A DNA stretch of 15,628 nucleotides, from positions 1 to 15,628 of the forward strand of contig CAMYWU010000010.1 of NCBI GenBank assembly GCA_947302895.1, given 5' to 3'. Shown here piece after piece: positions 1 to 13,800 of this stretch (position 1 is its first letter; the number at the start of each line of letters is the position of its first letter). A program made the position numbers and the translations under genes. This DNA is from an uncultured Clostridia bacterium (GTDB lineage: Bacteria; Bacillota; Clostridia; Oscillospirales; Acutalibacteraceae). The notes below the pieces were generated by a model that was not told the DNA's origin, made no database searches, and saw nothing but the letters and a program-made list of their open reading frames with translations.

Positions 1-4
1 TGTA

Positions 5-91
5 TTAGGATTCTATTTCTACAAACTTATTACAGATAGGTGAAGCGGTTAACAATTTTTCAAGTGAATTTATTGAAGCATATAATATCAT
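5..91 (-). CDS. possible 28-residue small protein
   Basis: A short frame of 28 codons starts with ATG at 91-89 and ends with TAA at 7-5. It is supported by an AAAGGAG ribosome binding site 8 bases before the ATG and by an extended -10 promoter (TGTTATAAT) about 30 bases upstream. The peptide begins MILYASINSLEKLL and ends FVEIES, with no signal peptide, membrane segment or family I recognise. It lies beyond the integrase terminator, so it may be flanking host DNA or an end piece of the element. It could also be the beginning of a gene cut short by insertion or decay. Expression signals are seen directly; that a peptide is made is inference. Confidence 0.35.
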   Translation of the reverse strand: MILYASINSLEKLLTASPICNKFVEIES

Positions 92-119
92 ATTGCTATC
101 TCCTTTCTCTTCTATTAGC

Positions 120-128
120 ATTATAACA
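120..128 (-). promoter_or_regulatory. extended -10 promoter for the small frame at 5-91
   Basis: On the minus strand the bases read TGTTATAAT, a perfect TATAAT -10 box with the TGn extension. No good -35 box is visible at 16-18 bases, as is common for extended -10 promoters. Transcription would start near 113, giving a leader of about 20 bases that carries AAAGGAG before the ATG at 91. Confidence 0.45.
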
Positions 129-236
129 CAACTCATGATTTTTTAAAGGGAACTATTATAGACCGATTATTTTTGGATAATATGATTAATACTCCACTCA
201 ATGAACTATAGCTATTATTAGCCAATCTTAAATATG
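129..236. other. AT-rich noncoding flank, possible attachment region
   Basis: This AT-rich stretch between the small frame's promoter and the integrase terminator holds no supported gene. It contains short palindromes (ATAGCTAT at 208-215; GCTA-TTAT-TAGC at 211-222). The end beside a tyrosine integrase gene is where an attachment site and arm-type integrase sites are expected, but without the other end of the element no core can be picked out. No tRNA gene is visible. Confidence 0.3.
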
Positions 237-268
237 ATAAACCCTCCGCTTTTCAGCAAAGGGTTTAT
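237..268 (-). terminator. hairpin terminator after the integrase gene
   Basis: ATAAACCCT (237-245) pairs perfectly with AGGGTTTAT (260-268), with an extra inner GCT/AGC pairing in the loop. It lies 8 bases past the integrase stop codon. On the minus strand the stem is followed by a moderately T-rich run (CATATTT). The T-rich arm could also let it work on the plus strand. Confidence 0.65.
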
Positions 269-276
269 TGTTAATT

Positions 277-1476
277 CTAAGCATTCAACTTAATTATATT
301 CTTCTCGCGCTTTTCCGCTTCCTTTTCGGATATCAGATTGCTCATTGTCTCCGCAACATTCTGCTGCATCGCATCGGTCACATGCATATAGGTGTTCATC
401 GTGAAGCCTGCATCGGTGTGTCCGAGCATGTGCGATACCGTCTTTATATCCATACCCTGTTCAAGCGACAGCGTTGCGAACGAGTGGCGCAGGTCGTGGA
501 ATCTGATGTCAGGCAGCCCTGCCCTTTTCAAAATTCTGTGCAGTTTGCGTGTGACGGCATCAGGGTCCCTGTAACCTCCCGTTATCGGCGAGGGGAAGAG
601 CAGTTTCTGGTCGAGCCGCTGACTGCCTCGCAACACTTTCAGCAGGTTTATACAGTCATCGCTTATGCTGATTTTCCTGATTGAAGATTTTGTTTTCGGA
701 GGCGATACAACTAAACCTTCGGTCGTTCTCTGCAGCTGCTTGTTGACTGAAATCGTTTTTGATTTAAAGTCAACATCCTTCCATTCGAGCGCAAGGATTT
801 CGCCGCGCCTCATTCCCGTTGCTATCACAAGGTAGTAGAATTCGTAGCATTCCGAATCCCGCGCTTCGTTCAGAAAGGCGGCAAGGTCTTTCGCTGCAAG
901 CGTTTTCATTTCCTTCGGCTTATCCTCGGGAAGTTTCACCTTTGAGCAGGGATTCTTGCTTATCAGTTCTTCATCCACCGCTTTTTGCAGACAGGAGTGA
1001 AGCGCTATTTTTATATCCCTGACAGTTCTCGCTGAAAGTCCTTTTGATTTATTCCCTCTTATTCTGCCTTCGGTAAACATTTTCATAAGGAACTGCTGAC
1101 AGTTAACCGTTGACAGGCTTTTCAGCTCTATGTTGCCAAGCGAAGGATCGATATAGGTGCGGAAGAAGAATTTATAATTCTCATAAGTACCTTGGCGCAC
1201 TGCTGCCTTGCAGAAGTTTTCAATCCATATTTCAGACCACTCTTTGAGAGTCGGGTTAGGATTCTTAAGGAAGTCGCACCGTGCAAGCGTAGCCTGTTGC
1301 TCGTTGTATTCGGCAATAGCTGCGCGCAATTTTTCTTTGCACTCAGCTTGTGATTTAGCAAGAATGTATTTAACTATTTTCTTACCGTTCTCATCAACGC
1401 CGGCGTTATAGCGACCTTCCCATCTGCCGTCTTTTCTTTTGCGAAGCGTTCCTTCGCCGTTACTTCTTTTTGACAT
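277..1476 (-). CDS. int: Tyrosine recombinase/integrase (Tn916 Int-like)
   Basis: Site-specific recombinase that would integrate and excise the mobile element. Numbering from the chosen start, an N-terminal arm-binding domain (about residues 5-60, with GEGTLRKRKDGRWEGRY) is followed by a SAM-like core-binding domain (about 70-180) and a catalytic domain. The full catalytic set is visible: Arg223 in ATGMRRGE, Lys263 in PKTKSS, His327 and Arg330 in FHDLRHSFAT, His353 in MLGHTD and the nucleophile Tyr363 in TMNTYMHV. At 399 residues it is normal length and appears intact. An in-frame ATG at 1485 abuts the ribosome binding site, so the ATG at 1476, nine bases after AAAGGAG, is preferred. It follows the excisionase-like gene by about 70 bases, probably as the last gene of one operon, and ends at a hairpin. 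Confidence 0.95.
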   Translation of the reverse strand: MSKRSNGEGTLRKRKDGRWEGRYNAGVDENGKKIVKYILAKSQAECKEKLRAAIAEYNEQQATLARCDFLKNPNPTLKEWSEIWIENFCKAAVRQGTYENYKFFFRTYIDPSLGNIELKSLSTVNCQQFLMKMFTEGRIRGNKSKGLSARTVRDIKIALHSCLQKAVDEELISKNPCSKVKLPEDKPKEMKTLAAKDLAAFLNEARDSECYEFYYLVIATGMRRGEILALEWKDVDFKSKTISVNKQLQRTTEGLVVSPPKTKSSIRKISISDDCINLLKVLRGSQRLDQKLLFPSPITGGYRDPDAVTRKLHRILKRAGLPDIRFHDLRHSFATLSLEQGMDIKTVSHMLGHTDAGFTMNTYMHVTDAMQQNVAETMSNLISEKEAEKREKNIIKLNA

Positions 1477-1548
1477 AGATTTCATCTCCTTTCAGCAACA
1501 CACAATACCACAAGGTCATTGTAATATCCAGCAAAAACGCAAAGAATA

Positions 1549-1746
1549 TTACTGCCTTCTGCAATTAGTTTCAATCCATTCCTTGAGCTGTTCTTTAGGA
1601 ACGGTCATTCGCCTTCCGATATTAATTACGGGAAAGGTTTTGTCCGTTTTTATTAAATGATATAGGCTGACATCGGAAACGCCGAGCACTTCAGCCGCTT
1701 GTACAACCGATAAAGGAATCGGCAGTTCATCAAAATTTGTAAACAT
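1549..1746 (-). CDS. xis: Excisionase-like MerR/HTH_17 DNA-binding protein
   Basis: A 65-residue protein of the excisionase-type DNA-binding family. Residues 10-58 match the typical pattern: LSVVQAAEVLGVSDVSLYHLI forms the helix-turn-helix in two parts (LSVVQAAEVLGVS, then DVSLYHLI), then FPVINIGRRMTVPKEQLKEWI forms the wing and closing helix. Such proteins bend DNA at attachment sites and steer the integrase toward excision. A good ribosome binding site (AAAAGGAG) lies 6 bases before the ATG. It sits just upstream of the integrase gene and 70 bases after the relaxase gene, with a palindrome and a possible promoter in that gap. It could instead mainly repress or activate the integrase gene; family members do both. 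Confidence 0.85.
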   Translation of the reverse strand: MFTNFDELPIPLSVVQAAEVLGVSDVSLYHLIKTDKTFPVINIGRRMTVPKEQLKEWIETNCRRQ

Positions 1747-1775
1747 AGTTTTCTCCTTTTCGGTAAAATACCCTT

Positions 1776-1793
1776 TTTATAGTTCTCTATAAA
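1776..1793. repeat. palindrome upstream of the excisionase-like gene
   Basis: TTTATAG (1776-1782) and CTATAAA (1787-1793) form a perfect 7-base inverted repeat with a TTCT spacer, 30 bases before the excisionase-like start codon. On the minus strand it is followed by As rather than Ts, so it is not a terminator for the operon. It overlaps the candidate -10 box at 1786-1791, so it may be an operator. On the plus strand it is followed by GTTTTT and might stop antisense transcription. Confidence 0.4.
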
Positions 1794-1814
1794 GTTTTTG
1801 AGATTAGCAAACAA
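1786..1814 (-). promoter_or_regulatory. possible promoter for xis-int
   Basis: On the minus strand TTGTTT (1814-1809), a 17-base spacer and TATAGA (1791-1786) could form a weak sigma-70-type promoter in the gap after the relaxase gene. Both boxes are imperfect (3/6 and 4/6), so read-through from the relaxase gene remains a good alternative. Confidence 0.3.
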
Positions 1815-1816
1815 AT

Positions 1817-3352
1817 CTACATAGACATTGTGAAGCCTTCGTCTTCATCCTCATCATCTTCATCATACTGATTGCGGTAGAATTCTTCTTCGTATTTCTT
1901 CTGCTGAAGCTCCGCTTGCTGACGAAGAAGCTCCTGTTGCTCACGCTTTGTTTTAGCGTATTCGTAAGCGGCATTTACTGCGGCAGCGCCGAGGTCAATG
2001 ATTGCGGCAGCATTGTCAGCTGCTCTCTGGGATTCGCTCTCGTCTTTTTCTTTCTTGGTGTCTTCTGCATAGCCCTTCTGACCGTGAGCCTGCTTTTTCT
2101 TCATCAGCTTCTCGCGCTCTTTTTCATCAAGCTGCGAGTGTAAATCGTCAAGCCTTTTACTGCAGGCGGTGTTGATAAAGAAACCAACCATATATGCAAT
2201 GTCATTTACGATTGCTCTGTTGGTGTTATCAATTGCAGTCTGATTCTCATCCTGACTCATATCCATTTGAAGAACGTAGTTGATGATTTTGTTTTTCAGA
2301 ACCGTGAATTCTTTGTTGTCTTCAAGCGGTATGTCAGGCTCTTTGCTGCTGTCATGGTATACTGAAAGCTTTTCTCTGTTCAGTCTGTTCCATTCGGAAT
2401 ATAGCTTGCTGATTTCAGGTATCTGCGCAAGAACTTTCAGTATGTTATCAACGCTCTTCTTAACATCCTTCGGCAGATAGCCGTATTGCTTCCTTCCTTT
2501 GCAGGTTTGTAACTGTTCGGCTAACTGAACGAACTGACTAAGAAGATTATCATCAATATCTATTCTGCCGATATCATAAAGCATTTTATCAAACTTATCT
2601 TTCAGCTCTTCACGGATATCCGTTTGAAGTTTAAATAGCTTGTACTGCTCGTTGCGGAATATATCATTAGCGAAAGCACTTTTCAGTTTTTCGTAACCTT
2701 TTGCGGTAATATATCCGTTACCGTTGGCGGAATAAACCATAAGGTGTATATGCGGATGATGCTTCGTGTTATGAAATGCGGCATACCATTTCAGCTCACT
2801 AACGGCAATCTTATGCGCTTCTGCAATTTCGTTTATGTTTCGCCTGACGCAATTCTTCCACGCTTCTGCGTTATCATAACCGAGACGGGAAGCGTCTTCA
2901 CGCCTTAAACTAATGACATCTGCAAACACAATTCCGTCAACGGAAGCAATTTCCTCTGCCGCTTTTTCCAGATCAATATCATCATCCGTATCAGAAAACA
3001 AACCGTGCGAGCCGAGTTTTTCAACACCGGGGCGCTCCGCAACATAATGCGTAAGCGTTTTTAAATCTGCTGTATCTGCATTGCGCTCAACGATTGCCGA
3101 GAGCAGTTCAGACGCATTAGCCTTCGTCATATTCTTTACATATGAATCGAATTCAGGATACTGATATATATCGGGATAGTGACGGAAGGCGCGGTATATT
3201 AATTCATCCTGCTGCTTTGTACTCGGCTTGTGTTCAGCGTTTGTATCCAGCTTTTCAACGCCTTCACGGGTTGCAATATATTTCAGCAGTCTGCCCGTTC
3301 CTTGCGTACGGTTACCTTTATAGTATCTTGTTGTTACGATAATCTTAGCCAT
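1817..3352 (-). CDS. MobP-type (MobL/MobP3-like) conjugative relaxase
   Basis: A 511-residue relaxase that would nick the transfer origin and pilot the cut strand to a recipient using a helper conjugation system. The metal-binding HUH motif is clear at residues 194-203: FHNTKHHPHIHLMVYS, with His199, His201 and His203 as the likely triad. Candidate nucleophile tyrosines lie near the N terminus (Tyr10 and Tyr11 in TTRYYKG, Tyr25 in LLKYIATREGVE); the LKYIATREGVE pattern is typical of the Gram-positive MobL/MobP3 group. The C-terminal third is Lys/Glu/Gln-rich, probably coiled coil, and ends in a very acidic tail. The ATG lies two bases after the stop codon of the upstream gene and has no strong ribosome binding site, which suggests translational coupling. 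Group assignment is from pattern recall, not a search. Confidence 0.9.
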   Translation of the reverse strand: MAKIIVTTRYYKGNRTQGTGRLLKYIATREGVEKLDTNAEHKPSTKQQDELIYRAFRHYPDIYQYPEFDSYVKNMTKANASELLSAIVERNADTADLKTLTHYVAERPGVEKLGSHGLFSDTDDDIDLEKAAEEIASVDGIVFADVISLRREDASRLGYDNAEAWKNCVRRNINEIAEAHKIAVSELKWYAAFHNTKHHPHIHLMVYSANGNGYITAKGYEKLKSAFANDIFRNEQYKLFKLQTDIREELKDKFDKMLYDIGRIDIDDNLLSQFVQLAEQLQTCKGRKQYGYLPKDVKKSVDNILKVLAQIPEISKLYSEWNRLNREKLSVYHDSSKEPDIPLEDNKEFTVLKNKIINYVLQMDMSQDENQTAIDNTNRAIVNDIAYMVGFFINTACSKRLDDLHSQLDEKEREKLMKKKQAHGQKGYAEDTKKEKDESESQRAADNAAAIIDLGAAAVNAAYEYAKTKREQQELLRQQAELQQKKYEEEFYRNQYDEDDEDEDEGFTMSM

Positions 3353-3354
3353 AA

Positions 3355-3753
3355 TTATTCGGGGTTACTTTTACTGTACTCTTTTTCAAAATCAATTGTG
3401 CCATTCGTTTCGGCGACCTTCTGTGCAATAAATTGGCGCAGATTGTCTAAATAATCATCAGGAAAATCATACAAGTCAACAGCCATCTGTGTTGTCATTC
3501 CCGTATCTACTGCAAGCTTGAACAGCATATCGCAGATGTTTTTCTCTACGCCGCCGATAACATTTTTGATACTTCTGTTGATAACAGGCGATAGATAATC
3601 AAGGCTCTCCTGCTGATAAAGATAGCCGATATAGAAATCAATAGCCATGCAAACAAAATCACTTTTTGAAGTGCAGTTTGCAAGCGGCATTGCCTGTTGC
3701 ATCTTTTTAGCCTGTGAAGGATATTGATAATATACATGTCTTTCTCGTTTCAT
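3355..3753 (-). CDS. RHH-like accessory relaxosome protein (probable)
   Basis: A 132-residue protein directly upstream of, and probably translationally coupled to, the relaxase. Residues 4-45 (ERHVYYQYPSQAKKMQQAM, then CTSKSDFVCMAIDFYIGYL) have the layout of a ribbon-helix-helix domain: a short beta strand, a helix, an SKSDF turn and a second helix. The rest is mostly helical, with an acidic C terminus. Proteins of this kind (NikA/TraJ/MobC-like) bind the inverted repeat beside the nick site and recruit the relaxase; the candidate oriT is immediately upstream. The start at 3753 is chosen because a perfect GGAGG lies 8 bases before it. The frame is open upstream to 3855, but that extension would run through the oriT candidate and lacks a binding site. 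I do not recognise an exact family. Confidence 0.75.
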   Translation of the reverse strand: MKRERHVYYQYPSQAKKMQQAMPLANCTSKSDFVCMAIDFYIGYLYQQESLDYLSPVINRSIKNVIGGVEKNICDMLFKLAVDTGMTTQMAVDLYDFPDDYLDNLRQFIAQKVAETNGTIDFEKEYSKSNPE

Positions 3754-3776
3754 CAAAACCACCTCCAAAAATAGTG

Positions 3777-3838
3777 ACCCCATTTCAGACATACCCCAAA
3801 CATCTTGAAACAGTCGGCTCTGCCGTCTGTTGTGCAGT
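3777..3838. repeat. oriT-proximal inverted and direct repeats
   Basis: CAGTCGGC (3811-3818) and GCCGTCTG (3822-3829) form an inverted repeat with one mismatch. ACCCCA occurs twice, at 3777-3782 and 3793-3798, 16 bases apart. These lie between the accessory gene start and the candidate nick site and look like binding sites for relaxosome or regulatory proteins. Confidence 0.45.
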
Positions 3839-3865
3839 GTGAGGCGACGCCTCACTTAATCCTGC
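3839..3865 (+). other. oriT: Candidate origin of transfer (oriT) with IncP-like nick site
   Basis: On the plus strand a palindrome, GTGAGGCG-A-CGCCTCAC (3839-3855), is followed after three bases by ATCCTGC (3859-3865). Known MobP/IncP-type origins such as RP4 have an inverted repeat just before a nick core of the form YATCCTG|Y. Here the core reads AATCCTG|C, 7 of 8 positions, and the predicted cut falls between 3864 and 3865. It lies directly upstream of the probable accessory protein and relaxase. The cut plus strand would lead transfer toward the right of the window, with the relaxase and integrase genes entering last. The sequence pattern is seen; the function is inferred. Confidence 0.6.
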
Positions 3866-3882
3866 TTGCAATAATATTGCAA
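3866..3882. repeat. inverted repeat next to the candidate nick site
   Basis: TTGCAAT and ATTGCAA (3866-3872 and 3876-3882) form a perfect 7-base inverted repeat with an AAT spacer, starting one base after the predicted nick position. It could bind the accessory protein or host factors, or form a hairpin on the transferred strand. Confidence 0.5.
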
Positions 3883-3907
3883 AATACCGCCCTCAAACGG
3901 CTTACAG

Positions 3908-4276
3908 TCAGGCAAAATTACCCTTCTGTATTTCTTCTTTGACTTCCATAAAAGCCTTCTTCCGCTTTTTCAAATCAACGACAATATACAGATTTGATGT
4001 TTGCATATGATCGTCATCAAAACGGTGGCTCTTTTCTATCAGTCCCCATTCAAGAAGTTCCTTAACCGCTTTATCAACAGTTACAACGGAGATGTCGCCG
4101 CAGTTCTTACCGATGGTTTCCCTCGACGGATACGAGGAACCGAAACCGTCGCTGCACTTGCACAGATAAAAGAACACCATAAACGCAGTCGGACTCAAAT
4201 CATAATCAAATACATCCTCGGGGACAAGAAAGAAATGACCTGCTTTAATAAAATTATGCACTTCGGTAAACGTCAT
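3908..4276 (-). CDS. Winged-helix (HTH_36-like) replication initiator-type protein
   Basis: A 122-residue DNA-binding protein. Residues 25-105 follow the pattern seen in helix-turn-helix proteins of plasmid initiators and mobile elements: SPTAFMVFFYLCKCSD, then YPSRETIGKNCGDISVVTV with the recognition helix, VDKAVKELLEWGLIEKSHR, and SNLYIVVDL as the wing. It carries no catalytic replication domain, so it is either a regulator or an initiator-like factor. The C terminus is a short charged helix. The preferred start is the ATG at 4276, eight bases after AGGAGG; a GTG at 4285 overlaps that site. It is the first gene of the mobilization cluster, with a promoter candidate at 4330-4358, and lies just upstream of the candidate oriT, so it may control transfer genes. 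Confidence 0.75.
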   Translation of the reverse strand: MTFTEVHNFIKAGHFFLVPEDVFDYDLSPTAFMVFFYLCKCSDGFGSSYPSRETIGKNCGDISVVTVDKAVKELLEWGLIEKSHRFDDDHMQTSNLYIVVDLKKRKKAFMEVKEEIQKGNFA

Positions 4277-4310
4277 ATTGCACACCTCCTGACTATAAAA
4301 AACATATTTA

Positions 4311-4324
4311 TGGAACTTCTTCCA
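4311..4324. repeat. small inverted repeat in the leader of the HTH gene
   Basis: TGGAA-CTTC-TTCCA forms a 5-base-arm inverted repeat between the candidate promoter and the ribosome binding site of the HTH gene. It is a plausible autoregulatory operator or leader hairpin. The arms are short, so chance is possible. Confidence 0.25.
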
Positions 4325-4329
4325 TCATA

Positions 4330-4358
4330 AGCATAGCACCGCGTATTTTCGGTTGCAA
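4330..4358 (-). promoter_or_regulatory. promoter for the mobilization cluster
   Basis: On the minus strand TTGCAA (4358-4353), a 17-base spacer and TATGCT (4335-4330) with a preceding TGC (extended -10) form a reasonable promoter. It sits about 50 bases upstream of the HTH gene start and downstream of a terminator, so it is the first chance for new transcription into the mobilization genes. Confidence 0.5.
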
Positions 4359-4486
4359 CAACAATCAATTCACCGTACTGTTTCTTGGACACAAAAGCAC
4401 ATAGCGTTGCATATGGAAACAATTTTTATTGACTCTGCAAATAAGATAATTTACAATTTTAATATCATTTTCAAAGCAAAAAACTA

Positions 4487-4511
4487 CCGCCCTGCATCTT
4501 TCGCAGGGCGG
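4487..4511 (-). terminator. strong rho-independent terminator after the DUF6809-like gene
   Basis: CCGCCCTGC (4487-4495) pairs perfectly with GCAGGGCGG (4503-4511) around a 7-base loop. On the minus strand it begins three bases after the stop codon and is followed by TAGTTTTTT. It separates the DUF6809-like gene from the mobilization cluster. Confidence 0.85.
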
Positions 4512-4514
4512 CTT

Positions 4515-4775
4515 TCATTTTGTTTCAATCATTATTTTCATCGCAAGGGAGAAACCTGTTTTGAATGCATCTTCCGCAATCACGGATGCTAATTCATTAG
4601 ATGCAGTCAGGTATTTTTCAAACAGTACCTTCTGCTCAGAAGTCATCCCTGAACTGATTTCCTGCTGCATTCTTCCTACCAGATTTAAACTCTCAATATA
4701 CCTCGGGTTTCTTTTCAGCGTTTCGGTATCGCACGGTTCTATGTTTCCGTAGTATAAATTTTCAAGCGTAGTCAT
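4515..4775 (-). CDS. DUF6809-like small protein
   Basis: An 86-residue, probably helical cytoplasmic protein. It begins MTTLENLYYGNIEPC and ends in EDAFKTGFSLAMKIMIET, the start and end patterns I associate with DUF6809, a family of unknown role common in Clostridia and often found on mobile elements. The middle (SEQKVLFEKYLTASNELASV) looks like an amphipathic helix. The start at 4775 is chosen because AAAGGAG lies 7 bases upstream; a longer frame to 4808 has no such site. It stands alone, with the giant gene's terminator upstream and its own strong terminator downstream, so it should be a separate transcript. Family assignment is from memory of the pattern. Confidence 0.75.
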   Translation of the reverse strand: MTTLENLYYGNIEPCDTETLKRNPRYIESLNLVGRMQQEISSGMTSEQKVLFEKYLTASNELASVIAEDAFKTGFSLAMKIMIETK

Positions 4776-4835
4776 TGTATCACTCCTTTGCAACACAACA
4801 ACTACCACACTTCATTTTGAAAGTCCAGAGAAAAG

Positions 4836-4865
4836 AAGCTGCCCCGCATTTCTGCGAGGCAGCTT
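4836..4865 (-). terminator. terminator after the giant surface protein gene
   Basis: AAGCTGCC (4836-4843) pairs with GGCAGCTT (4858-4865), with a second inner stem CGCA/TGCG around a TTTC loop and a single mismatch between them. It lies 22 bases past the stop codon of the giant gene. On the minus strand the stem is followed by the pyrimidine-rich CTTTTCTC. Confidence 0.75.
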
Positions 4866-4887
4866 TTGTATATCCGAAAGGATTTAA

Positions 4888-7800
4888 TTATTTAACAGTT
4901 ACTTTAACGCTCTTGAGCTTACCGTTGTTTGCAAAGATATAGATGGTGCAGGTGCCTTTGCCGACTGCCTTAATCTTGCCATTCTTATCAACGGTTGCAA
5001 CTGCTGTGTTTGTTGACTGGTAGCGGAATTTTGCTACGTGCTCAACTGCCTTCTTCTTGCTGTTTTTAAGAACAAGAGTCGGCTTGATAGCTGCAGTCTT
5101 GTTAACCTTAAGGGTGAATGCATCCTTTTTAACGGTAATTGCTTTAGCATTTGAATATTTAGTGTTCTTCTTTCCGACAAGATGAAGCTGAACAGACTGC
5201 GTTATCTTTTCATACTTGCCGTTTACCTTGCGGTAAGCAACTACGTAAATCTTAACAGACTTCTTCTGGTCGAGCTTCTTGCCGTTAAGCTTTGTAATAT
5301 CAAAGGAATGAACATTGCCCTTAACGGTTTTAATCTTCTTGAACTCGCTGTTCTTGCTGCAGTAGTTTGCATAGATTTCAAACTTTTCAGCGTTTGCAAC
5401 TGCGCCCCACTTAGCCGTGATAGAACCGTTCGTGTTAACCGTCGCCTTGATAGCGGAGTTAATCGTGTTCTTGCCTGCCGTTCTTTCTTTAGCAGTGATA
5501 CGGTCTGTTACGGTGTATGTGCCGTTAACGACTGTAACATCGTAGTTTGCATTTGCGGTATATGCAACCTTAATTACATATTTGCCTGCAACTGCAGCCT
5601 TAACATTTGAAGAAACCTTAATACCAAGGCTGTCGCCGTCATAAATCTTGCCGTCAACCTTGTAGGTTAACTTCTTGAGGTTAGCCTCACGCTTGCTTGA
5701 CTTGTCATCGGCAGTAATAGTAACCTTTGCCTTTGCGACTGTGAAGTCCGCTGTTGCTGTGCCGGCATTGTAGTTAGCGGTTTCAGCGATATCAGCCTTA
5801 ACGGTATATTCGCCTGCCTGAGTCGGAACATCAGCAAAGAATTCGTCGCTGCCCTTAACTGCGTAAGTGTAAGTTACGGCGCCGTTTTCTGCGTTACCTT
5901 CAACAACCGGCTTGTTAGCCTCTTCGCCGTATGTCCAGCCTTCGAGTTTAACAACGGGTTTAATATCAGCCTTTATGACAGTCAGCTTTGCGCTTGTAAC
6001 GGCTACATCATAGTTCGGATTTTCACCCGAGGTTACTGTGATCTCGTACTCGCCGACATTTTCGCCCTCTGCTCTTGAAAGAGTGTAATTCAGCGTGTCT
6101 TCACCAACGGTGCCATCAACAGTTGCCGTCAGTTCGGGATCGTCCTCGCCGTATACCTTACTAAGATTATCGGCAGTAACGATTGCATCCTTCTTTGTAA
6201 TTGTAAAGGTTCCGTTCAATGCAGCAGCATCATAGTTCGGATTGTTACCCAGAGTTACTGTAATCGCGTATTCGCCGACATTTTCGCCCTCTGCTCTTTC
6301 CAGAGTGTAATCCAGCGTGTCTTCGCCAACAAGGCCGGTAACAACTGCAGTCAGTTCAGGATCGTCCTCGCCATATACCTTGCCCAGGTTGTTCGCGGTG
6401 ACAGTCACATCAGCGGATTTCTTCGTTATCGTGAATACGCCGTTCAAAGCAGTCACATCATAGTTGGGGTTCTCGCCGGGAGTTACTGTTATAGCATATT
6501 CTCCGGCGTTATTGCCCTTTGCTCTCGATAATGTGTAGTTGATGGTGTCTGTTCCAACAGTTCCTTCAACAGTTGCCGTCAGTTCAGGATCATTTTCGCT
6601 GTAAACCTTACTCAGATTGTTAGCGGTGACGGTGGCAGCCTTCTTTGTAATCGTGAAAGTGCCCTTGACCGCGGTCACATTGTAGTTCGGGTTATTACCG
6701 AGGGTGACTTTGGTTTCGTACTCGCCAACATTATCGCCCTTTGCTCTCGATAATGTGTAGTTGATGGTGTCTGTTCCAACAGTTCCTTCAACAGTTGCCG
6801 TCAGTTCGGGATCGTTTTCACCGTAAACCTTACTCAGGTTATCGGCAGTAACAGTGGCAGCCTTCTTGTTAATCTTAAAGGTGCCGTTGTTCGCAGTCAC
6901 ATTGTAGTTCGGGTTATCACCGAGGTTGACATTAATGTTATATTCGCCAACATTATCGCCCTTTGCTCTCGATAATGTGTAGTTGATGGTGTCATCGCCT
7001 ACGGTGCCGTCAACAGTTGCTGTCAATTCGGGATCATCCTCGCCATAAGTCTTGGACTTATTAACAGCAGTTACGCTTGCTGCTTTCTTGCCGATTGTCA
7101 ACTTGGCGTTTGCGACGGTTACATTGTAGTTCGGGTTCTCACCGAGAGTAACAGTGATGTCGTATTTTCCGACGTTCTCGCCCTCCGCTCTGGACAATGT
7201 GTAGTTGATGGTGTCATCGCCTACGGTACCGTCAACGGTAGCCGTCAGTGCTGGATCGTTTTCACTGTAAACCTTGCTCTTGTTGTCAGCCGTGACGGTA
7301 GCAGCCTTCTTGGTAATCGTGAAGGTGCCGTTATTCGCGGTCACGTCATAGTTCGGGTTCTCTCCGAGCGTGACAGTGATTTCGTACTCGCCAACGTTTT
7401 TGCCCTCGGCTCTTGTCAGCAGGCAGTTGATGGTGTCATTTCCGACAACGCCTTCAACCTGAGCTTCCAGTTTAGGATCGGCTGCGCCGTAAGTCTTGGT
7501 CTTGTTGACAGCGGTTACTGTTGCTGCTTTCTTTGCAATCGTGTATTCAACGCTTGCAGTCTTTCCGTCAACAGTGATGCTTGCGGTGTAAGTTCCTGCG
7601 TCAGTAGGTGCAGCGTCAAGAACTGTCGTGCCGTGCTTGTAGACAACGGTTGGTGTGTCGATACCCTCAATGTTATTGGTAACAACTGCCGCTGCATCTC
7701 CTGTGCCACCGTAAACCGTCAGTGTCGGAGCTGCAATTGTCATCGTTGCGCTCAGTTCACCTGAATGTCCGGTATCGGTATTTGCGCAGGTTGCTGTTAT

Positions 7801-10800
7801 CGTTGCGCCGTCTGCAGTGTAGCTCCACTCGTGATCGTGGTCAGAAGTTGAAAGTGTTGCAGCCGCACTTGAAGGAGAAGCGTTGTAGTTTGCAGTCTCC
7901 TTGAGACGCTGGTAGAAGGTATACTCCGTTTTCTTCGCCAGACCGGTGAAGGTTGCGCTATCCTGCCAGTTTTCACCGTCCTTGCTGTATTCGCAGCCCT
8001 CAACCTCGGTCAACTTAATCATATTTGCAGTAGCTGTATCCGCAGTCGGTGCAGCAGGAGCAGAACGGTTTGCCTTGTTCATCGTAACCGTAAAGCTGCC
8101 GCTTGCCGTGTCATGGTTCGGTGCACTTGCTTTGAAATAAACAGTGCCGGAATCTGCGACATTGGTAAATGTCGGCATTGCGCCGAACTCACCGTTCTCT
8201 GTCAGACTGTAGGTGAAGGTTACCTTGTTTTTATTAACTGCTGTTGCATTTGCATTAACCTGAGGAGTCTGAGCGGTGCCGTCATATGTCAGCGTTCCTT
8301 TCTGCGTCACGCTCAATTCGGTAAGCGTTGCATTCTTAATCTCATACTCCACATTGGCAGTTGCAGCGTTTTCGCCTGTGCCAAGCGTAATGCTTGCCTT
8401 GTATTCTCCTGCGTTCACAGGCTCTGTTTCAGAAGCTTCGCCATAGGTTCCGTTTTCGCCCTTAACAGCGTAGAGAACCTTAACATCGCCCTGAATGCCG
8501 TTTTCATCCGTTATGATTGCGGGATGAGCGTTGCCGTCATATACGATGTTGCCGTTTGGCGCGCTTATCGCAAGAGTTGCAGTACTGTTCGGGAAAGGAC
8601 AATCATCATTAGAGCAGGTTGCAGTAATGGTGTTTGCTTTTTCGCCCGTTCCTGCGGTATAGGTTAATTTATGTGTGTGGTTAACAAGTGTCAGGGTAGC
8701 GCTTCCTGTAACTGTTTCATAGTTATCCGCTGTTACCTGATAGTAAACGGTCAGCGTTCCTGCTTCAGTCAGTGTCGGGCAGGTGCTGAGGTTATATGTT
8801 CCTTCAGAAGTGCCGTATTTAACTGTGTAGCCCTCTGACGGCTCGGTCACATTTACGGTGATGCCGTATGGCTGTCCGTTTACAGTTGCGTTCACATCTT
8901 CTGCAGTAACGCTCATCTTCTTGGGATTGATTGTTACATTTACATCCTTTGAGGTTACCGCATAGGTTTCGGTTCGGGAAGCAGTTACAGTGATGACTGC
9001 GGTTCTTGCCTTAACGATTGCAAGGTTACCCTCTGCATCAACGGTTACTGCGTCGCCGCTCTTGACCTTGTAGCTGAGCAAACCGTCTCCGACGGTTACT
9101 GCGGCATTGAGCTTCAAGCCGGTATCGCCGAAGGTTGCGCTAACATCGCTTGCTTCGATGGTCTGAGGCTCACCAAGTGATTCAAGAATCGTTAATGTTC
9201 CGTTGCGAACATCCTTGACATCGTAGTTCGGATTTTCGCCCGGAGTTACTGTGATGGTGTAGGTGCCTTCTTCTTCGCCCTTTTCACGGGAGATAGTATA
9301 ATTGAGTTTTTCACCCTCAACTATGCCACCCTCAAATACATTGAGCGCGCGAATAAGCACAAGGGTGGGATCTTCCTGCTTAACTTCGCCTTCGGTTATG
9401 AATTCGATATTGTCGATTGCAAAGAAGTCTCCGTTATAAGCGGAGCTGCCGTCCTTGGAGTAGCTCCAAGTTAAGGTGTGTCTGCCTGCTGACAGATCAC
9501 AGAAGCAGGTCTTCCAGGTTCCGCTGCCGCTCACATTAAGTCTTTCATCTCCGTCAACATAGAAGTGACACTTATCGCATCCTTCCTCGGTTCCGTATTT
9601 GTAGCCGAACGAAATCTTGCCCGCCTTTTCCAATGTGACATTGAGCGTCAGTTTAGAGGTTGTGTCGTCGTATCCTGCGTTTCCGGATTGCATATAAACT
9701 CTGTCGCCTTCGGTGACTTCAGTCCACGGATAGTTGGCGTCGTTCTTGAAACGCATATCCGCGATAAGTGAGTCGAGGGGAACTGTATCGTCCGGTTTCT
9801 CTTCGGAAGCAGGCTGTGTTACTTCGCCCTCGCTGTCGATGACAATGTTATCAACTGCATAGAAGTCGCCGTTACTGTCACCGCCGCCATCCTTCGTATA
9901 GTACCAGGTGAGGGTGTGCGTGCCTGCGGAGAGGTCGCAGGAATAGGAAGTCCAGTCGCGAACATCGCTATCATCGAATTTTTCGTTGCCGTCCACGGCG
10001 AAATGAACTTTATCAAACCAACCCTCGGTTCCAAACTTATAGTCGAAGGAGAGTTTGCCCGCCTTTTCCATTGTGACTTTGAGCGTCATGGTGGAGACGG
10101 AATCGCCGACGCCGGCGTTACCTGACTTAGCGTAAACTCTGTCGCCTTCGGTGACTATCTGCCACGGGTAGTTTGAGTCGTTTTCAAAGTGAAGAGCTGC
10201 GCCGACAGAATCATAGGATACGGTTAATTCGGGGTCAGCCTGACCTTCGTGTTTTTCCTGGTCATCTGCAATGACTGCAACAGGTCTCTTCGTGATTTTG
10301 AATTCGTCCACGCTGTTTTCATGACCGTCCAGGGAAACGAGCGCGGTATAGGTTCCGACATTCTTTGCCTCGGAAACTTTCTCGCCGCCTTTGTAGAAGG
10401 TGAGCGTTGGAAGGGGCAGACCGTTTTCTTCGGTCCATTCGTCGGAGCAGATATATGGTTGCGCGTTTTCGCCGTCGTACATTTTATCGACCGCCTTAGG
10501 TTGCAATGTAAGCGTGCTGTTGGGACATTCGGGAACATCGCAAGTTGCGGTATATACATGGCTGCTCTCGTCGTAATTCAGAGTCCAGTTGTGAATGTGC
10601 TTCCACTGTGCGTAGAAGGTTGTGTTGCCGAGAACTTCAAATTTGTCTCCCGGCTTGTAGGCAATACCGGTGCCGTTTGGCATGGTGTTCCAGCCGTTAA
10701 AGACGAGATTCGGTTTGCTGATTTCGTCAGCGCTTTGAATCTCAATTTTGCTCTTGACGTAGTATTTTCCGCCGGTTGGAACATTTCCGTTTCCGCCGTT

Positions 10801-13800
10801 GAGATTATAGGATACATTGTAGCTCACATTAGGACTAATCACACCTGTACCGGCGCCGCCTGATTTCGCTACAAAAATCGGCATTTCTTCCCATTGACTT
10901 ATGTCGTAAACATAATTCAGGTCGCTGTTTGCTATTCTGGCACTACCGGGGCTTCGGTACTCAATGAAAGTGCAGTTATATTCATCTCTCTGCGAAAGCA
11001 TGATGATGCCCATCGGATGTTCCTTATGGTTTGAGAGAATCCAAAGAAGCGCATCAAGCGCGGAGCAAGGATTGCTCATTTCTTCCGGAGAACTCGGCGC
11101 ACCTAATTCCACATTCGTCTCAACCAGCATACTGTCGGTGCCGGGAATGTAAACCTCAGCGTCATCGGATAAAATACTTGCGATTATGTTATCAACAGGT
11201 ATGGTTTGCTGCTCACAGCCATCGTAGGTGCTGTAACGATAGCAGAAAGCGTATTCCGTATTATCGTCATACTGCCAGTGTTCCTCCGGGAAGCCTTCCG
11301 GACGGACGATATATCTCTTGCCGTAAACAATGTATTTCGGTTTCTCATTCCACGGGTCGTCCGATCTGAGCGAATCCTCGTTTGCATAGACCCACGCCAT
11401 CGCCTCAATCGGGTCGCCACTTTTAAGATTGAAAATCGAAGCGGCATCGTTGGTGCGGATATATTCGGGAATTTCAACTTCGGTGGAAGAAACACCTTCA
11501 ACAACGGGGATTTCATAAACCACATGGATTGTAGCGGTGTTTTCATCTTCGCCGACGGTGAGTTCCGCCCAGTACTTGCCTGCTTTAAGCGGCGTTTTGC
11601 TCAACGCCTCGCCGACCTTGGCGGTGCCGTCTTCGTTTGCATTATAGTATTTAACCTTGGGATTACCAAACGGTTTTAATGAGCCGCTGATGATAGCATC
11701 GGGCATACCGTAGCCGGTAGCTGTTCTTTCGGGAGGAAGAATCTTCAGCGTTACCGTGCGGTCCTGATCTTTAAGCGGACAGTCCTCATCGGCGCTGACG
11801 CACTTTGCAATAACGCTATCGTCGCCATTTGCGGTGAAACTCCACTCGTGGTCGTGAGCGGTCGTTGAAATCGTTGCCGCCTCGCTGGAAGGAGAAGCGT
11901 TGTAGTTCTCGGTTTCCTTAAAACGCTGATAGAAGTTATACTCCGTATTCTTCGTCAGTCCGGTGAAGGTTGCGCTATCCTGCCAGGTCTCGCCGTCCAT
12001 ACTGTACTCACAATCCTCAACCTCTTTAAGCCTGATTGTATTGACAGTTGCTTTAGCTAAAGTCGGCTTTGAAGCAGTTCGGTCGCCCTTTTCCATCGTA
12101 ACCGCGAAGCTGCCGCGTTCCTCGTCATGGTTCGGGGCACTTGCTTTGTAATAAACCGTAGCAGAGTCAGCAACATTGGTAAAGGTCGGCATTTCGCCGT
12201 ACTCGCCGTTTTCTGTCAGACTGAAAGTAAAGGTTACAGTCTGGTCATTAACTGCGGTTGCATACGCATTGAACTGCGGAGTCTGCGCCCTACCATTGTA
12301 CTTCATAGTACCGTTCTGTGCGGCACTGACATCGGTCAGTTTTGCGTTCTTAATCTCATATTCAACGCTGACGGTTGCAGCGCCTTCGCCTTTGCCGAGA
12401 GTAATGCTTGCCTTATAGGTTCCTGCGCCAACAGGTTCTGTCTCGGTAGCTTCGCCATAGGTTCCGTCTTTGCCCTTCACAGCATAGAGAACCTTAACAT
12501 CGCCCTGAATGCCGTTTTCATCCGTTATGATTGCAGGATGTGCTTTGCCGTCGTAAACGATTTCGCCCTCGGGCGCCGCAAGGGTCAAAGTTGCCGTGTG
12601 CTTATGCGTCTGGGCATCTTCATTCAGGTAGCAGAAGGTGTCCGTGTTCGCGCAAACAGCCGTTATGGTTGTTCCATCCGCACTGTAAGTGTATTCGTGA
12701 TGGTGGTTAACGTAGTGAGCAAAAACGGTTGTATCTTCCGTGAACTTATACTCTTCCGTAACCTTTTCGCCGCCCTCTGCCTGAGTGTACCAGCCTTCAA
12801 AGAACAACGGTTCTTCGCCTTCCTGTACCGTCGGCGGGGTGGGCTTGTTTTCGGGAATTGAAATGTGGCCTTTAAGGTTGGACTGTACGGGGTCGAAGGT
12901 GCCCGTTCCGCCGTTCAGGTCAAATTCCACTGTGCAAATCGTGGCAACGGATGCCTCTGCAGGAGTCTTTCCGTTCAATTCATCAGCCGTAAAGCTGACG
13001 GAATAGCTGACCGTCTGTTCCTTCGTCAGTGTCAGGGATTCATCTTGGAAGTTCTTCTGTGCAATAACATTGCCTTCAGCGTCCAGAAGAAGTGCAACGG
13101 GTATGCCGAATTTTTTCTTCTTCATGGAGTTGTTGCGGATGTCGGCGTAAACGGTGTAACCGGTAACCTCATCCTGCTCATTGGTATTCACTTCAACCGA
13201 AGTGTCCGTTGTTAGCTTTTCACCGTTGTTTCTTGCAAGCAGACCGGTGAAATTAATGTAGTTGTCGTTATTGTATATATCTGGTTCGTCGGTATCCACT
13301 ACCCACGCGTGAGCATATACCGTCATTCCCTCCTCGGGAATCTCGCCGTCAGCGTTGAGTTCAGCAATGTCGGTAACATTGAGGGTCCGGACGGTGGTAT
13401 AGGTGCCCTCGTCAATTTCTGCAAGAGCGTCGCCCGAGATAGAAACCTCGTCGCCAATCTTGCTCTCGTGGAAGGGGTCCTTATAGAACGCCAGTTTAAC
13501 AGTCTTGCCGCTGCCTGCGAGCGGAATTTCGGAGCCGTTGTTCAGCATAACCTGAACATCACGCTGTCCGTCGTGCTCCTGAAGGACTTTAATACCCGTG
13601 ATACCTACGTCAGGACGGTTCATTACCAGCGTACCATCGCCGAGTTGAGTATCGCCGCTCGTTACAGAATAAGCAGTATCGCTCACTGCACCCGCAGGAA
13701 CGCTGTAACTCATCATAAGCGCTGTTGACTGATTCGGAAGAAGGTTCAGTCCCGTGAATTTCCGGCTCTGCGAGCCGACTGTTGCCGTAACGGTATCGAG

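Follow-up and report, generated by a model that had tools for sequence, protein, structure and literature searches.

We found that positions 3804–3877 of the analyzed DNA very probably constitute the origin of transfer (oriT) of a putative integrative mobilizable element of about 4.8 kb, which combines an IncP-type core, including a predicted nick, with a MobP3/MobL-family relaxase. Comparison of related sequences supports the reading as a transfer origin that the initial annotation had proposed; of greater interest is that this signal also occurs where the relaxase is absent. The window (the whole stretch of DNA analyzed, 15,628 bases) is an entire contig (C10) of a 1.6-Mb, 82%-complete metagenome-assembled genome (MAG). 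The genes of the element all lie on the minus strand, and the features are as follows.

277–1485, minus strand: tyrosine recombinase (integrase), 402 aa (Pfam PF00589, 8.9e-27; PF14659, 8.6e-14).
1549–1746, minus strand: excisionase-type HTH protein, 65 aa (TIGR01764, 34.3 bits; cut-off, 28.8).
1817–3352, minus strand: MobP3/MobL-family relaxase, 511 aa (NF041499, 303 bits; cut-off, 150).
3355–3753, minus strand: ribbon-helix-helix (RHH)-type accessory protein, 132 aa (ATG at 3753; homologues in relatives).
3804–3877, minus strand: putative oriT signal, full-length match to covariance model R1 (81.6 bits, E = 2.3e-14; the window itself is among the 29 training sequences).
3811–3829, no strand assigned: IR2, the distal hairpin, conserved in sequence, one mismatched pair (96.5% of cells paired in 82 distinct rows).
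3839–3855, no strand assigned: IR1, the nick-proximal hairpin and the palindrome of the initial annotation, variable in sequence with pairing kept (92.5–96.3% of cells paired).
3855–3865, plus strand: nick core CTTAATCCTG|C, predicted nick 3864|3865 (CCTG|Y in 76 of 85 aligned copies; nick position by analogy).
3866–3882, no strand assigned: A+T-rich palindrome adjoining the predicted nick (exact copy only in L002; flank A+T-rich in most copies).
3908–4276, minus strand: HTH_36 protein (PF13730, 8.4e-9).
4515–4775, minus strand: DUF6809 protein (PF20648, 1.3e-18).
4820–4835, no strand assigned: probable far element end (last position homologous to L002, 4833; to L007, 4832).

Pfam and NCBIfam profiles place both an integrase and a relaxase in the element. 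Nucleotide homology between the window and the nearest relative, L002, covers positions 1–4833 (89%) and ends there, and the last patch of homology to L007 ends at 4832. Judged from these alignments, the element would be about 4.8 kb in size, its integrase end running into the contig end. No attachment (direct) repeats of at least 13 bases were found in L002. A repetitive protein of 3,516 aa (4888–15438) lies directly past the probable element end and fills most of the remaining contig; it is probably outside the element because the homology stops at 4833 and 4832. A terminator-like stem (4836–4865, 13 pairs, minus strand) was also observed at the probable boundary. According to the family survey described below, the host genome contains one copy of the oriT signal.

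Two palindromes, IR1 (GTGAGGCG-A-CGCCTCAC, 3839–3855) and a second one (TTGCAATA-A-TATTGCAA, 3866–3882), both with perfect 8-bp arms and a 1-nt spacer, are the only inverted repeats of their kind (arms ≥ 8 bases, loops ≤ 3 bases) in the 15,628-base window. Window-wide, two such repeats are unremarkable, as 100 dinucleotide shuffles gave a mean of 1.05 and a maximum of 5 (G+C-rich repeats of the same kind had a shuffle mean of 0.15 per window). Within the 154-base intergenic stretch 3754–3907, which was picked after the finding had been seen, two are unusual (one or more in 21 of 5000 shuffles, two in 4 of 5000). IR2 (CAGTCGGC-TCT-GCCGTCTG, 3811–3829) has one mismatched pair. ATCCTGC occurs at 3859–3865, although the heptamer alone means little because five more plus-strand copies are present in the window (six in total). 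The open reading frame 3355–3855 most likely starts at ATG 3753 (GGAGG upstream, 132 aa), so that IR1 is intergenic; IR1 and the core sit between the HTH_36 gene and the RHH gene, which is followed by the relaxase gene. The initial annotation had described a palindrome with 8-base arms followed by ATCCTG|C, a distance of about 9 bases from repeat to nick, and a position upstream of an RHH-like gene and a MobP-type relaxase. Both sequence components are present at 3839–3855 and 3859–3865, the distance from the end of IR1 to the predicted nick is 9 nt in the window, and the gene context was confirmed, with the relaxase passing the NCBIfam MobP3 profile.

The window relaxase exceeded the cut-off of that profile (NF041499) twofold (303 vs 150 bits), and no match to PF03432 (Relaxase, RP4/VirD2-type MOBP) was detected at E 0.1; P0008, a 96% identical relaxase, scored 16.9 bits in PF03432, compared with a gathering score of 24.6. 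Pfam MobL (PF18555) was matched by three of four scanned relatives (P0041, P0096, and P0125; 49–58% identical; 5.1e-26 to 3.1e-30), with no match for the window relaxase; P0008 was unmatched in one scan, though PF18555 was listed for it in another. Tyr25, His194, His201, and His203 were invariant in all 58 aligned relaxases, and the active residue given in PMC5313138 for RelLS20, the MOBL prototype, is Tyr26. The label MOBP3 is used in PMC6856555 for IncX plasmids, a group that may or may not coincide with NCBIfam MobP3.

We investigated the upstream signal in loci of relaxase relatives (a first set of 80, L002–L081, together with the window, and a second set of 29 more). A regular expression with a hairpin filter found a match in 67 of 109 upstream regions; because it overlooked true sites and accepted some chance ones (in L061 and L081, elsewhere than R1), it was replaced by the covariance model R1, built from 29 aligned copies taken from clear relatives. 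The signal in relatives is a double hairpin of about 75 bp; read in the sense of the relaxase gene, the upstream order is RCAGG-N3-AAG, hairpin IR1, CACATCGGACGGCAGAGCCGACCG or a variant of it (IR2), and the RHH gene. R1 matched 73 of the 81 sources at E ≤ 1, one match per source, and 64 at E ≤ 0.01; 18 of the 81, window included, belonged to the training set, and outside it the counts were 55 and 46 of 63, respectively. In the second set, 28 of 29 loci were matched (17 of 18 outside the training set), the match of L085 being cut by a contig end. Misses comprised three loci whose contigs extend upstream by 429 bp at most, if at all (L009, L034, and L054), and five despite longer upstream sequence (L057, L059, L070, L073, and L074). 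All 64 matches at E ≤ 0.01 were upstream of the relaxase gene and on the same strand, in loci that had been chosen for having a relaxase, and 55 of them lay at 380–760 bp; a weaker match in L066 (E 0.03) was on the opposite strand. The copies are not independent, and identical oriTs were shared by L004/L005/L082, L018/L086, L029/L032/L033, L031/L097, L044/L045/L046/L101, and L030/L100.

A homologous open reading frame of the RHH-type protein was found in 73 of the 80 loci L002–L081 (74 open reading frames). Five of 24 homologues matched RHH_1 (PF01402; best, 2.7e-9), and the window's own copy had no match to this family. The predicted structure of the 132-aa protein (mean pLDDT 79.9, pTM 0.39) has N-terminal helices at residues 12–21 and 30–47 with no strand called. 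A fold search returned 66 matches, none at E ≤ 0.001, and the best-ranked were mostly RHH proteins (CopG, ParD, and NikR); a PDB sequence search with the RHH family gave only two matches (E 0.25 and 0.5), both unrelated. By homology, the protein can be assigned to RHH accessory proteins. The RHH frame lies between the oriT and the relaxase in 62 of the 63 loci with a match at E ≤ 0.01 (window not counted), the exception being L018. In L018 (1651–1735) and L086 (1254–1338), the oriT is located about 170 bp (173 bp in L018) before the relaxase, leaving no room for an RHH gene; six sites in the class survey described below, 200–249 bp before a relaxase match, show a likewise short distance.

RHH proteins often autoregulate. 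The hairpins might be an operator or other regulatory site, through which the RHH protein controls an RHH–relaxase operon, with no nick involved. The position of the signal directly upstream of the RHH gene in those 62 loci and the frequent autoregulation by RHH proteins are compatible with this, as are promoter-like hexamers at 3727–3756 on the minus strand. However, it leaves unexplained the conserved unpaired CCTG|Y core at near-fixed spacing, eight relaxase-less copies have an integrase but no RHH gene was found with them, and the oriT of L018 is 173 bp from its relaxase, with no RHH gene. We consider a purely regulatory site very unlikely, while the signal may be used both as an operator and as an oriT. 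In a partial Mantel test on 57 loci, the divergence of IR2 tracked that of the relaxase (r = 0.26, p = 0.001) and showed no association with the RHH protein (r = −0.08, p = 0.90). This runs against the simplest view, in which the RHH protein reads IR2, and favours the relaxase as its reader.

The oriT reading itself leads to the core, which we compared in alignment A2 (85 rows, 82 distinct, from 110 sources; near-duplicates and weak or missing matches were left out). The core reads CCTG|Y in 76 copies, CCCG|C in eight, and CTTG|C in one; its 11 columns are gap-free in all 85 copies, and 14 copies carry one or two extra bases right after its last position. Exact ATCCTGC was found in only 21 of the 85 copies and was rejected as the family core, CCTG|Y holding instead. 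The initial annotation had expected palindrome, spacing, and ATCCTGC to be kept together in related intergenic stretches. Palindrome, spacing, and core are indeed co-conserved, but taken to the letter only half of the expectation for close relatives held: L003–L008 (relaxases 75–86% identical), six of the seven nearest first-set relatives for which upstream sequence exists (L002–L008), all read ATCCTG|T. The likeness drawn to the IncP core YATCCTG|Y does not extend to all eight positions, as the window reads AATCCTG|C, with A instead of Y first; CCTG|Y is the part that stood. Judging from the alignment, the kept element is CTT-N3-CCTG|Y, and the IncP pattern quoted in that annotation allows either C or T behind the cut. 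ATCCTGC is thus one form of a less strict but well-preserved core, which comes close to the MOBP nick motifs in PMC7755788 (CATCCTG|C in a P11 plasmid, TATCCTG|C in a P3 plasmid). As to the flanking repeats that had been pointed out, 3811–3829 proved to be part of the conserved signal, whereas 3866–3882 is present in exact form only in the window and L002 among L001–L110.

The nick of this oriT might instead fall at CTTG|C (3868|3869), in the fashion of Tn1549. The window reads CCTGCTTGCA there, and PMC7755788 lists the Tn1549 nick as RYGCTTG|C and that of other elements as CTTG|CA. We rejected this candidate and give it only a slim chance, because CCTGCTTG is not conserved: it occurs in 19 of 85 copies, compared with 76 of 85 for CCTG|Y, and is absent from L003–L008.

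Pairing within the two hairpins was examined in the same alignment. Standard pairs made up 95.0% of hairpin cells in the 82 distinct copies, compared with 30–41% in slid controls (partners shifted by 1–3 columns), and changes on both sides were seen in 217 cells, compared with 7–31; A2 was fitted to the structure and is thereby biased toward pairing, while close relatives had first been aligned without structure. Three of five covariation measures were above all 500 shuffles, and two were barely above shuffling (both-side-change pairs were reached by 20 of 500 shuffles and further pair types by 32 of 500). The mean distance over 160 close pairs was 0.30 for IR1, 0.10 for IR2, and 0.06 for the core; IR1 is the most divergent part between copies, yet its pairing is kept. 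G-U pairs accounted for 12 of about 1004 paired cells, a scarcity that fits a DNA dyad rather than an RNA stem. A structured RNA or a transcription terminator, which would account for two stems with compensatory changes and could be likened to the small RNA reported to be required for SGI1 mobilization, is the least probable reading, given those few G-U pairs, the unpaired state of the conserved core, a sole Rfam match at the site of 21.6 bits against a gathering score of 100, and a scan of 3600–4900 that listed no terminator-like site at IR1 or IR2.

Returning to the oriT with a nick after CCTG, we infer its mode of action from the anatomy of the site and by comparison with known relaxases. 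At the oriT, the RHH protein and the relaxase would assemble, the former helping to build the relaxosome; this step is the least certain because IR2 co-varies with the relaxase and not with the RHH protein, and because L018 and L086 have no RHH gene in between. The relaxase would recognise the nick-proximal hairpin IR1, held single-stranded, and cut the plus strand after CCTG (3864|3865) through Tyr25. The 5′ end would then lead into the recipient from 3865 onward, so that genes to the right of the site would enter first and the relaxase gene last. A helper would supply the coupling protein and the pore. The nick at 3864|3865, a credible position, and the plus strand as the transferred strand are both predicted by analogy.

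Neither the element nor the host assembly (G000) yielded a VirD4-type coupling protein (PF02534), so the conjugation machinery for transfer would have to come from a helper; the helper could be missing from the host MAG, which is 82% complete. Five of ten ICE-like loci (L035, L044, L045, L046, and L048) had a PF02534 match within the stretch examined, by coordinates and with contig identity inferred from numbering. In some relatives, the same signal and relaxase are accompanied by a nearby gene for a coupling protein, the arrangement of ICEs. MOB-suite types three plasmids that carry a MobP3-type relaxase (L175, L176, and L177) as 'non-mobilizable', per PLSDB. R1 matched two of these three (E 5e-5 and 1.9e-4) and the third weakly (E 0.046); the match in L176 (E 1.9e-4) was on the strand opposite to the relaxase gene. 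The MobP2 plasmid pZB18 gave no convincing R1 match (9.8 bits, E 2.4), and the Sulfobacillus plasmid pL15, whose annotated relaxase is MobL, gave none at E ≤ 5. On pL15, GCAGGATAAGG followed by a GC-rich, IR2-like dyad was observed upstream of the relaxase (L179:3675–3740).

We then consider the distribution of the signal among genomes. In the family survey (398 genomes), R1 was found in 45 genomes and a relaxase relative (E ≤ 0.001) in 47, with both in 30 (Fisher 4e-22); in the class survey (391 genomes, NF041499 as query), the counts were 40, 37, and 19 (Fisher 9e-12), 28 of the 37 relaxase genomes being above the curated cut-off. The two samples share some genomes. Under strict filters, 17 of the 47 relaxase-bearing family genomes had no R1 match, some of the relaxase matches being fragments. 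Relatives of this relaxase are therefore common in these Clostridia, and the covariance model offers a way to recognise potentially mobilizable elements from sequence.

Among the 67 R1 sites of the family survey, 33 preceded a MobP3 relaxase by no more than about 6 kb, and the other 34 had none within 6 kb on their contig; 17 of the 51 R1 sites of the class survey were within 6 kb of a relaxase. The 6-kb test used 63 relaxase matches; the ten weakest fragments were left out, all of them, by position, farther than 6 kb from every relaxase-less site. We examined the neighbourhood of each of the 34 sites (33 stretches in 24 genomes), with at least 5.7 kb on both sides for 21 of them and for 12 of the 16 with an integrase. 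Downstream, eight had both an RHH gene and a tyrosine integrase, eight an integrase alone, four an RHH gene alone, and seven neither; at the remaining seven, the contig ended within 2.5 kb with no integrase seen, and two of these had an RHH frame. A tyrosine integrase was thus present within 2.5 kb downstream of 16 of the 34 sites. Eleven of the 16 integrase frames had at least 350 residues, L149 and L150 among them running to a contig end, and five were short or split (L151, the second site of L155, L156, L161, and L169), so that some relaxase-less elements may be decayed.

The relaxase-less calls rest on MobP3, PF18555, PF03432, PF01076, and PF03389. Searches of the 24 genomes with PF18555 and PF03432 revealed no relaxase within 6 kb of the sites, with the exception of a single opposite-strand PF03432 match at a distance of 5.5 kb (G217, contig 84), and searches of 11 of the 24 with PF01076 and PF03389 revealed none near them. 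Neighbourhood scans with Pfam and NCBIfam covered 12 of the 33 stretches (frames ≥ 110 residues long, out to about 4.5 kb; best 25 of 133 and of 530 families, respectively). In the Pfam scan of 122 frames around 12 sites, 14 frames were integrases, and no relaxase family was among the best 25 of 133 families, a range that a family with a single match would not reach. Four loci from three genomes (L149, L152, L153, and L161) share an oriT–RHH–integrase block of about 1.8–2.0 kb at 82–84% identity; outside it, only scattered patches in other arrangements were found, and L149 ends soon after the block. In L155, one genome carries two R1 sites separated by 7.5 kb; an integrase and a fragment of one follow them, and these may be tandem relaxase-less elements.

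The occurrence of relaxase-less copies beside integrases suggests elements that borrow a relaxase. MobP3-type oriTs could be a shared currency of gut Clostridia, in which, alongside ICE-like elements and relaxase-bearing integrative mobilizable elements, relaxase-less integrative elements borrow a MobP3 relaxase and a conjugation pore from other elements, a proposal for and against which we see equal weight. It would imply a so far unnamed class of elements, each with an oriT, often its own RHH gene, and a tyrosine integrase after these (the best-defined group measures about 2 kb), whose existence we rate at an even chance, no higher, because five of the 16 integrases are short or split. Elements with and without a relaxase may occur at about equal frequency, and current typing may overlook both kinds. 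With the relaxase-less copies at hand, conjugative hitch-hiking in this group becomes directly testable.

The known systems place these results in context. The window resembles IncP/RP4-type (MOBP) oriTs in its ATCCTG|C and in the placement of an inverted repeat, which in RP4 too precedes the nick by a few bases on the 5′ side of the cut strand; RP4 likewise has an accessory protein that recognises the oriT (TraJ, as described in PMC6414798). It differs in that its relaxase belongs to NCBIfam MobP3 or Pfam MobL of Bacillota, in the family core CTT-N3-CCTG|Y, and in the second conserved hairpin, IR2, that follows. The source study on the mobilization region of Tn1549 is reportedly Tsvetkova 2010. 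Like the present element, Tn1549 is integrated, and it uses a MOBP relaxase recruited by a MobC-type accessory protein according to PMC7755788, PMC6856555, and PMC12857230, but its recorded nick is RYGCTTG|C. The literature covered, in which subscription papers are largely missing and which is no proof of novelty, yielded no oriT for relatives of this relaxase except that of pLS20. With pLS20 and RelLS20, as presented in PMC5313138, the family shares Pfam MobL matches in relatives, a conserved N-terminal Tyr, and an inverted repeat at the nick. However, pLS20 is nicked after GAATCGGGGGCCGG, the sequence quoted in PMC5313138 contains no CCTG, and its oriT is separated from the relaxase gene by 865 bp that include two putative genes. 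Because pLS20 is nicked at another sequence, the branch of the window would be one that joins a MobP3/MobL relaxase to an IncP-like core. The staphylococcal oriT mimics of PMC8136818 also consist of an oriT alone and need a relaxase in trans; these sit on plasmids, whereas the relaxase-less carriers here adjoin integrase genes, eight also with an RHH gene. The iMOB and iOriT elements described in PMC11389934 carry an oriT with a relaxase, or an oriT alone with the relaxase acting in trans, and the oriT–RHH–integrase loci, which are presumably mobile, are candidates for the latter.
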